NCBI GenBank assembly: GCA_039980135.1
Contig: JBDXCV010000007.1
Coordinates: 62,001-126,000 of the forward strand
Origin: Alphaproteobacteria bacterium
GTDB lineage: Bacteria; Pseudomonadota; Alphaproteobacteria; UBA6615
DNA length: 64,000 nucleotides
Reading direction: 5' to 3'
Positions 16,908-19,488 of this stretch are shown here, piece after piece. The position numbers were made by a program, and so were the translations under genes. Below the pieces are notes generated by a model. That model saw nothing but the letters and a program-made list of their open reading frames with translations, did not search any database and was not told the origin of the DNA. Numbering within the stretch: the stretch's first letter is position 1; each line of letters opens with the position of its first letter.

Positions 16908-17936
16908 CTAAATCGCGACCAACTCGCGGATCAGATCCATGTTCGACGGGTCGGGTGCGATCTCACCGGCGTGAATCCGCCGCGTCACCTCGACAATCGC
17001 ATGACTGGCGGGTGCGGCTTGTCCCGCTGCTGCAAGCGTCTCCGCGACCAGGCCATTGATGGCGTCCGTCTCGCTCATCCGGCCTTTCGCATGGTCCTGC
17101 AACACGGTCGTCGGGGTATCCGGCAGGGTGAAGGTCTCGAGCTTTTCAATCAGCAGTTCGAGAACGTGGTTCGAGTTCTCGATCTCGGACTGATCGAGAC
17201 CCACAATGGGCACCGGCTTGTGGCCGCGCACGGCACCGGCGGCGAGCGCCTCGGCACCGGCCTTGAGCATTAGGCCGCGCATACCCGGAATCTCGTAGGA
17301 TTCGTTCAATCCCATGCCCAGCAACCCGGCGGTGGCGAGCGTCATCGCGTTCATCACCAGCTTCATCCATTTTGCCGACTGGATGTCAGGCACGACCTCG
17401 ACCACACCCACGTGGCGGAGCAATTCCGCGACCTCTTCCTCGCGGCGGTCCGTCGACGGATCGATGCTGCCGAGCGCGAACCATGATCCCGCATCCGGCG
17501 GCGAGCGCCGGATCACGACACCCGGGCCTTCGAGTTCGCCCGCCAACTCGATGACGCAGGGCAGGGTGCGTTCAGCGCCGACCACGTCGGCAATGGTCTC
17601 GGCGGTCATCCCGTTCTGGACGCCGATCAGCAGGCCGTCGTCGGCCATATGGGGTTTGATTAGTTCGGCCGCCCAGCGGGTGTCGTAGGCCTTGAACAGC
17701 ATCAGCACCACGTCGAACGGTTCAGTGAAGGTTGCGATGTCGCACAGATGATAGGCGTCGACGTCGGCATGAACGGTCTCGTCGGGCATTTTGACAGTCA
17801 CGCCGCCCGCGCGCATGGCCTCCACATGGGCCGGCCATTGGTCGATCAGCTTCACGTCGAGCCCGGCGCGGGTCAGGTCCGCGCCGATGGCGCTGCCGTT
17901 GGCGCCCGAACCCAGAATGGCGATGCGTTGGGTCAT
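16908..17936 (-). CDS. ketopantoate reductase (ApbA/PanE) family protein
   Basis: 342 residues starting MTQRIAILGSGANG. N-terminal Rossmann fold G-S-G-A-N-G; the catalytic lysine lies in S-A-K-W-M-K-L-V-M-N-A; the substrate-binding E is in R-M-S-E-T-D-A-I-N-G. PanE reduces 2-dehydropantoate to pantoate with NADPH, but many paralogues act on other 2-oxo acids, and the usual second Asn after the K-x-x-x-N helix is not clear here. It starts 4 bp after the stop of the YCII gene, so it is the third gene of the GST-YCII operon. Confidence 0.82.
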   Translation of the reverse strand: MTQRIAILGSGANGSAIGADLTRAGLDVKLIDQWPAHVEAMRAGGVTVKMPDETVHADVDAYHLCDIATFTEPFDVVLMLFKAYDTRWAAELIKPHMADDGLLIGVQNGMTAETIADVVGAERTLPCVIELAGELEGPGVVIRRSPPDAGSWFALGSIDPSTDRREEEVAELLRHVGVVEVVPDIQSAKWMKLVMNAMTLATAGLLGMGLNESYEIPGMRGLMLKAGAEALAAGAVRGHKPVPIVGLDQSEIENSNHVLELLIEKLETFTLPDTPTTVLQDHAKGRMSETDAINGLVAETLAAAGQAAPASHAIVEVTRRIHAGEIAPDPSNMDLIRELVAI

Positions 17937-17940
17937 CTGC

Positions 17941-18636
17941 TTATGCAAGCGACTTCCCGAACCGCCAGCGGTGGATGTTGATTTCACGGAATACGCCGCC
18001 CTGGGTCATCGGTTCGTTGGCGACAAGGAGTTCCGCTGTGTTCCGGTCGGCGACCTCGATGAGGAACAGGCTCCCGAGCAGACCCTTGCCGTCATCGTTG
18101 CGTAGCGGGCCGTGGGCCATGTAGCGCTCGATGAGCGAACCCTGATAGTCGTGATGGTCGGCCGCGGTCTTGGGACGCAGGGTCGCGGCGTCGGGCCCGT
18201 CGAGGCATTCGCACACGAACAGTTGCAAATCTGGGTCGGGCGCGCGGTCGAAATACTTCAGGCGCTTGGAGCTGACGAAACGCGTGATCGTCGGCGGTTC
18301 GAGCATCCCAGCTTTCGCGAAGCCGTCGCCGAAAACATACGCCTCGGCCGTGGCTCGGTCGGGAAGCTCGATGATGCACATGGTGCCGAGCGGTGACGAT
18401 CCGTCGTCGGTCAGGATCGGCCCGGCGAAATGCATGAACTCCCGATATTTGGCCTGATGGGCGAGATGCGGTTCCATCGCCGCCTCGCGTTTTTCGGCCG
18501 CGCCGGGGGCATACATGGACCGGATGAACCACTGGGGCGGCTGGGCCAGGTAATAATCCTGCAGCGCCTGACCCGACAGCCCGTAGCGCGGGTCGTCGGG
18601 CCGGTAGCCGCCTGGATTGTTGGGGTCGCCTGACAT
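17941..18636 (-). CDS. double YCII-domain protein
   Basis: 231 residues made of two YCII-like ferredoxin-fold units (about 38-120 and 138-228). Each has the pattern H-L-x-Y-x/H-x-x-x-Y..., A-G-P-I-L-T-D-D-G or H-G-P-L-R-N-D-D-G, then G-S-L-F-L-I-E-V-A-D-R-x-x-A-E, characteristic of the family. Single YCII domains are common; a fused pair is less so. The biochemical role of the family is poorly defined. It is separated from the upstream GST stop codon by two bases, so it is translationally coupled to it. Confidence 0.82.
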   Translation of the reverse strand: MSGDPNNPGGYRPDDPRYGLSGQALQDYYLAQPPQWFIRSMYAPGAAEKREAAMEPHLAHQAKYREFMHFAGPILTDDGSSPLGTMCIIELPDRATAEAYVFGDGFAKAGMLEPPTITRFVSSKRLKYFDRAPDPDLQLFVCECLDGPDAATLRPKTAADHHDYQGSLIERYMAHGPLRNDDGKGLLGSLFLIEVADRNTAELLVANEPMTQGGVFREINIHRWRFGKSLA

Positions 18637-18638
18637 TC

Positions 18639-19331
18639 TTACTCGGCAGCGACCGTGTTCTCGAAGAAGTCCCGCGCGTAAAGCTCGCGCCGGTGCAGGT
18701 TGCCGATGAACTCCGCTTCGAAATTGTCCGGCACGGCGCCGGTTACGCGCGCGTCGGCCATCAGCGTTTCGGCCCAGGCGCGGATCAGCGGGAAGTCCTT
18801 GAGCACATCATTCTGCAGGCCTTCGTCGATCAGCAGGTAACGCTGCAGGAAGGGCGCAAAGGCCGCGTCCACCAGCGACAGGTCAGGCCCGTTGAAGAAC
18901 GGCCCGTCATTGCCCCGTCCGGCGAGGGCTTTCTCCACCTTCGCAAGAACCTCGGGCGCGGCCTCGACCGCCGCCTCCATGTCTTCGCGGGTCTTGGCGT
19001 AGTGGATCTTGCTCAACGCGCCGGCGAAGGTCGCGGTGAAGTCGGTCCAGGCGCGGTTCTTGGCCCGGGCGATCGGGTCTTCCGGGTGCAGGCGCGGCGG
19101 CACCATCTCGTCGAGAAACTCGGCGATGGCGTTGGACTCGAAAAGGATTTCGTCGCCGACCTTGAGGACCGGGACCTTGCCGTGGGGTGAGATTTCGAGG
19201 AACCAGTCGGGCTTCTCACGCAGATTGATATAGGTGACGTCGAACTCGACTTCTTTGGCGCGCAAAAGGATCACGGCGCGCTGGACCCATGGTCAGGTGA
19301 ACGAGCTGATCAGATGATATTTGGCGGTCAT
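18639..19331 (-). CDS. glutathione S-transferase with in-frame TGA at the catalytic cysteine: candidate selenoprotein
   Basis: Read through, this is a 230-residue GST: MTAKYHLISSFT-[TGA]-PWVQRAVILLRAK, thioredoxin-fold domain 1-80 (cis-Pro in K-V-P-V-L, E-S-N-A-I glutathione contact at 65-69), then an all-helical domain. The ATG at 19331 has AAGGGGA seven bases upstream. Codon 13 is TGA (19295-19293), at the position held by the active-site Cys of C-P-W-V-Q-R-type GSTs. A hairpin 12-35 bases after the TGA fits bacterial SECIS rules. Starting instead at the GTG at 19274 would remove the first strand and the active site and has no ribosome-binding site. First gene of an operon with YCII and ketopantoate reductase-like genes. 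Alternatives are a nonsense mutation or a sequencing error. No sel genes lie in this window. Confidence 0.75.
19258..19281 (-). promoter_or_regulatory. candidate bacterial SECIS hairpin inside the GST gene
   Basis: On the minus strand, 12 bases after the TGA, GCGCGC pairs with GCGCGC across a 12-base loop CGTGATCCTTTT. The loop starts 17 bases after the TGA, has a G (followed by T) as its second base, and is 12 bases long. These values fall inside the published general rule for bacterial SECIS elements (loop 3-14 bases with a G in the first two positions, 16-37 bases from the UGA). Hairpins are frequent in GC-rich DNA, so this is supportive and not decisive. Confidence 0.5.
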
Positions 19332-19488
19332 TGTTTTCCCCTTTGTCTGGTCCAAATCATAGGGCCGGGACGGGCGCCGGTCAAAATGCGCGTGCGGGGT
19401 TGCTGACGATGTTGTGAGCGGCCCGGCGATTGTCCGCGTCGCGCCGCGCCGGTAGTTTTCAAGCAACAGAAACCCGCGAGAGAAGATC

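Follow-up and report, generated by a model that had tools for sequence, protein, structure and literature searches.

An in-frame TGA at the catalytic position of a GST gene

Does the single TGA that interrupts a glutathione S-transferase (GST) gene encode selenocysteine (Sec), or does it mark a broken gene? We addressed this question in a 64,000-nucleotide stretch of alphaproteobacterial DNA (the window), for which an earlier note had proposed a Sec-containing GST on the minus strand. The frame from 19331 to 18639 translates as MTAKYHLISSFT-TGA-PWVQRAVILL...VAAE-stop, with the TGA at codon 13 as its only in-frame stop, and a Shine-Dalgarno-like AAGGGGA is found a few nucleotides 5' of the ATG; these observations confirm the claim of a frame open from a ribosome-binding site and ATG to its stop apart from that codon. 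Both Pfam GST domains, GST_N and GST_C, scored above their cut-offs. Standard ORF calling yields two pieces in place of the gene, a 105-aa fragment that stops at the TGA and a 211-aa ORF with a GTG start (19274-18639), the latter without the catalytic segment. It had also been argued that a random nonsense mutation would have about a 1 in 230 chance of hitting this codon. That argument is weak by itself; its message that the TGA is non-random held, and the comparative data given below make the argument needless. Features of the locus are listed in Table 1.

Table 1. Coordinates of the predicted Sec-GST gene, its putative signals and the neighbouring genes in the window
Feature	Position	Strand	Basis
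Predicted GST selenoprotein gene (omega-like Cys-type, 230 aa, Sec13)	18639..19331	-	16 orthologues in sampled relatives retain the frame and the TGA
Codon 13, TGA (UGA), very probably read as selenocysteine, aligned with the catalytic Cys of homologues	19293..19295	-	TGA versus TGC/TGT in homologues
Probable ribosome-binding site, AAGGGGA region, 5' of ATG 19331	19339..19345	-	Sequence
Putative SECIS hairpin, 6-bp stem 19281-19276 / 19263-19258, loop 19275-19264 starting CGUGAU	19258..19281	-	Near-invariant synonymous positions in TGA genes only; pairing; one compensatory pair
YciI-like protein, tandem YCII domains, 2 nt 3' of GST, probably co-transcribed	17941..18636	-	ORF call, Pfam; adjacency in close relatives only
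Ketopantoate-reductase-like (ApbA/PanE) protein overlapping the YciI ORF	16908..17987	-	ORF call, Pfam; adjacency in nearest relatives

Selenocysteine machinery and its co-occurrence with the gene

The assembly that holds the window (3.76 Mb, 98.8% complete) contains selA (583 bits), selB (467 bits), selD (284 bits) and tRNA-Sec (71 bits; ARAGORN concurs, with anticodon TCA), all scoring above curated cut-offs. The four genes lie within about 17 kb, at 827-844 kb of contig C3, and the GST gene lies on contig C7. The genome search suggested in the earlier note thus returned the complete set, and the lack of Sec machinery that it had named as a refutation did not occur. Across 385 sampled genomes of the class, selA was present in 11 of the 12 genomes with a TGA-GST versus 45 of the 373 others (Fisher P = 3 × 10−9). 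The exception is G034 (77% complete, TGA-GST at locus L031), in which we found no selA, selB or convincing tRNA-Sec; this may reflect missing sequence, or else the machinery may have been lost and the gene may have decayed afterwards.

Several further observations concern the surroundings of the sel genes and other candidate Sec proteins. The selD gene (L079:4900-7122) is fused to a pyridine-nucleotide-disulphide oxidoreductase domain and adjoins the tRNA-Sec gene, with selA-selB about 12 kb away. A second, Cys-type GST (SSCPFAQR, 37% identical) is encoded on contig C3 at L079:2775-3467, about 18 kb from selA. Ten genomes of the family encode this Cys-type GST on the contig that bears selA, some 9-30 kb away. 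Its counterpart frame in G009 contains several stops. This GST may be connected to selenium metabolism. Formate dehydrogenase alpha is a common bacterial Sec client. We discarded it as a further client in this genome, in which its gene (L176, G000:C9:38925-40979) has no in-frame TGA.

TGA and cysteine codons in homologous genes

Among 60 genomes sampled for close orthologues, including the genome of the window itself, 17 carried the GST (62-100% identical), and codon 13 was TGA in 17/17. The 16 orthologues from outside this genome were 62-95% identical and all had the TGA, and the sole other stop in the set of 17 was one TAA that ends a slightly shorter frame. In most of the next-nearest homologues, with identities of about 35-40%, this position is Cys. 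We then scanned 85,000 species genomes, which yielded 203 relatives, and analysed the best 80; one of the two scan seeds was a Cys-containing peptide pattern, so that any bias would be toward Cys genes. In these best 80 of 203 homologues, which came from alphaproteobacterial and some gammaproteobacterial metagenome-assembled genomes (MAGs), codon 13 was TGA in 64, TGC or TGT in 16, and any other codon in none. Assemblies made independently from other species have the identical TGA, and this agreement takes the place of the read-depth check suggested in the earlier note. Directly 5' of it, Thr is encoded in 68/68 TGA genes by way of four codons, and Pro is encoded directly 3' of it in 68/68, again by way of four codons; both sides of the TGA are thus under selection at the protein level.

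The earlier note had placed the TGA at the catalytic Cys of related GSTs and had taken the intact remainder of the protein as an argument against an old pseudogene. Both points stood: the homologue alignment that it proposed shows TGA or Cys at codon 13 and frames that are otherwise intact, and the scattered stops and frameshifts that would speak against it are absent. A pseudogene, a nonsense mutation or a sequencing error at codon 13 would look just like this in one genome, as a GST frame normal but for a single TGA, but the orthologues refute it and it is scarcely credible for a codon shared by 16 other sampled genomes and 64 wider-scan loci whose frames are otherwise open, under strong purifying selection on both sides. 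That UGA might be read as another amino acid, by genome-wide reassignment to Trp or by near-cognate readthrough, would be compatible with a frame that is open whatever TGA means. This is extremely improbable, however, given that TGA terminates 5 of the 15 neighbouring ORFs checked, that Trp is encoded by TGG in the GST gene, that Cys and in no case Trp occurs at position 13 of the best 80 homologues, and that the full Sec machinery is present; genome-wide reassignment was rejected from the orthologues together with the neighbouring stop codons.

We built a tree of the Sec and Cys forms without residue 13. It requires four Sec/Cys changes, at least three of them forced by well-supported branches, compared with 14.9 expected with shuffled labels, and Sec and Cys have therefore replaced each other several times in this GST family, in one direction or both; the Cys rows nearest the outgroups may be misplaced by long branches.

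The TGA-GSTs L125, L127, L129, L133, L138, L141, L142, L145, L159 and L160 come from MAGs named Gammaproteobacteria (or its orders) and sit at two places within the alphaproteobacterial tree, a placement that suggests inter-class transfer or misbinning. In L024 (genome G021), the in-frame ATG is absent at the usual start and an out-of-frame ATGACC seems to be present, which suggests a small indel or an assembly error. A search for viral copies of the GST found none, and the plasmid copies found were distant ones only (<60% identity).

A putative SECIS hairpin downstream of the TGA

When the 17 close orthologues are compared, synonymous conservation over five-codon stretches of the gene is highest at codons 17-21 (+4 to +8 relative to the TGA), with 0.91 identical codons among same-residue pairs versus 0.49 overall. 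The motif CGCGCCGTG at +16 to +24 (CGC GCC GTG, codons +5 to +7 after the TGA) was identical in 66/68 TGA genes and occurred in 0/16 Cys genes, including 0/7 of those that encode the same Arg-Ala-Val (Fisher P = 2 × 10−15 for all genes and 2 × 10−8 for those with the same residues; the sequences are related, and these P values are only indicative). The motif supplies the greater part of the 5' strand of a predicted 6-bp helix and the beginning of its loop; the pairing partner, GCGYGC, lies farther downstream. Across 60 distinct sequences, 99.2% of cells in this helix pair, and sliding controls pair worse. At the outer pair, 56 of these sequences have G-C and 4 have A-U; in the four A-U cases, which fall on two separate branches of the tree, Gln CAG changed to CAA together with a change of Ala to Val, and this is the only helix pair with a double (compensatory) change. 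The helix is intact in 66/68 TGA genes versus 4/16 Cys genes. The hairpin of the TGA-GST in G034 deviates and has an alternative stem.

We compared the hairpin with the published bacterial SECIS model, which specifies a stem of 4-16 bp, a distance of 16-37 nt from UGA to loop, a G in the first two loop positions, an apical loop of 3-9 nt and a minimum free energy of at most -7.5 kcal/mol. The 6-bp stem, the 17 nt from UGA to loop and the loop start C-G-U (GU at positions 2-3) all fit. The common minimal loop is 12 nt, against 3-9 nt in the model, with inner pairs possible in some members that would shorten it. For the 42 nt from the UGA of the window gene, the free energy is -13.6 kcal/mol, below the threshold of the model, and the mean for the hairpin segment across the 68 TGA genes is -9.5 kcal/mol. 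The hairpin was no more stable than shuffled sequence (z = +0.94) and stability did not differ between TGA and Cys genes, so we dropped thermodynamic stability as evidence; the case for a putative RNA signal rests on conservation and covariation.

Protein fold and class

An AlphaFold model of the protein gave a confident GST fold (mean pLDDT 90), and a fold search returned GST crystal structures at Z of about 21-23. Sequence profiles ranked Leishmania TDR1 and GST omega 1 first, followed by SspA, DHAR, tau and lambda GSTs, and in the structure comparison the Z scores of tau-class GSTs, TDR1, omega GSTs and DHAR differed by no more than about 2 units, with tau leading or tied. We describe the product as a probable omega-like, Cys-type cytosolic GST; tau-class GSTs match equally well, so that the fold does not discriminate between the classes. 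Its best profile matches are omega-class and related Cys-type GSTs (human GSTO1, Leishmania TDR1, plant DHAR and bacterial SspA), and they include the Cys-Pro-(F/W) motif with which helix 1 begins; it differs in that Sec would replace the Cys and in being only about 25% identical. In alignments with Cys-type GSTs, Sec13 falls on their catalytic Cys, and Y5, S9, T12, P14 and W15 are among the invariant residues near it. P54 and E65-S66 are invariant in the 17 orthologues and may have the cis-Pro and Glu-Ser roles in glutathione binding, by analogy with the family.

The model also bears on whether the UGA is simply bypassed, with a 211-aa GST starting from GTG 19274 and the 5' part serving as a leader or selenium-sensing attenuator. 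Mechanical ORF calling does produce this GTG ORF, and a UGA near the 5' end could act as a selenium switch. Against this, codons 1-12 and 14-19 vary synonymously while their amino acids are retained, the GTG corresponds to Val20 inside helix 1 of the modelled fold, where a start would drop strand 1 and the catalytic residue, and the Cys homologues have the full-length frame. We regard bypass as very unlikely.

Probable selenocysteine decoding and predicted catalysis

Because the Sec machinery is complete, orthologues share the TGA, the RNA signal is specific to TGA genes and selA co-occurs with the gene, we conclude that UGA13 is very probably decoded as Sec by way of a bacterial SECIS element and that this is a true selenoprotein gene, as the earlier note had proposed. 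The basis is comparative (codon conservation, Sec/Cys exchange, the RNA signal and the machinery), and from it we infer the actual incorporation of selenium. SelA would convert Ser-tRNA-Sec and selenophosphate (from SelD) to Sec-tRNA-Sec, which SelB would bring to ribosomes at UGA13 by binding the downstream SECIS hairpin. In the resulting motif T-U-P-W-V-Q-R, the selenol would take the place of the catalytic thiol. By analogy with Cys-type GSTs, it may form a mixed selenide-sulphide (Sec-SG) with glutathione, followed by reduction or thiol transfer, and the enzyme probably acts on small molecules that are oxidised or electrophilic. A glutathione-dependent thiol (selenol) transferase or reductase acting through this Sec-SG intermediate is the activity that we favour, with some reserve.

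The main rival for catalysis is a glutathione peroxidase-like hydroperoxidase in place of a thiol transferase or reductase. Artificial seleno-GSTs (rat GST T2-2 and human GST Z1-1), which likewise combine a GST scaffold with an active-site selenol, gain strong GPx activity when the active-site Ser is converted to Sec (PMC9944854). In those enzymes, however, the Ser-to-Sec change is chemical, whereas the present Sec-GST is predicted to be naturally encoded; their scaffolds are theta and zeta GSTs, while the natural protein is nearest by profile to the Cys-type TDR1 and omega; and its Sec exchanges with Cys in natural evolution. A peroxidase therefore seems unlikely to us, though less so than any alternative reading of the UGA itself.

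Gene order was considered as a further clue to the substrate of the predicted transferase or reductase. With its start at 18636, the YciI-like ORF follows the GST stop by 2 nt and overlaps the ApbA-like ORF by 47 nt, which bears out the tight coupling of the downstream genes described previously. The YciI-like adjacency is limited to close relatives, and we set it aside as a clue. Among the best 80 of 203 relatives, no neighbour cluster was common to more than 9 of the 80 loci; therefore gene order gives no firm indication of substrate.

Relation to known selenoprotein GSTs

The earlier note had named GST as a selenoprotein family reported from marine metagenomes, and correctly so. In the passages of the two surveys that deal with this family, GST is named as a new selenoprotein family in Sargasso Sea data in 2005 (4 sequences; PMC1088965), and 12 Sec-GST sequences are given for the Global Ocean Sampling data in 2008 (PMC2398784). 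The family is listed again in reviews of 2022 and 2026 (PMC9312934, PMC13188914), the latter describing such selenoprotein families as largely uncharacterised. The present gene therefore adds to an already known family, so that the selenoprotein reading of the note stands while the novelty it implied is lower. As described in those passages, the marine sequences are also GSTs (COG0625/PF13409) from marine bacteria, in which TGA/Cys pairing together with a bacterial SECIS led to the prediction of Sec; our match to them is by family name and description. The family presented here differs in being found in assembled genomes with sel genes, with an RNA signature specific to TGA genes and a Sec/Cys tree. 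A search of the open-access literature found no functional study of a natural Sec-GST.

Mechanical ORF calling cuts the Sec-GST to 211 aa without its active-site residue. We tentatively propose, as a possibility that falls short of a probable one, that these genes form a subfamily in which most members use Sec as the normal catalytic residue, the SECIS is fixed and family-specific, and Sec and Cys have been swapped several times, and that the product may be a natural selenol-glutathione enzyme with an activity that is poor in the Cys forms. What had been a list entry of metagenome selenoproteomes becomes a concrete gene family with machinery, an RNA signal and matched natural Cys variants, and this Sec/Cys GST family would be a good test case for the use of selenium over sulphur in glutathione chemistry.
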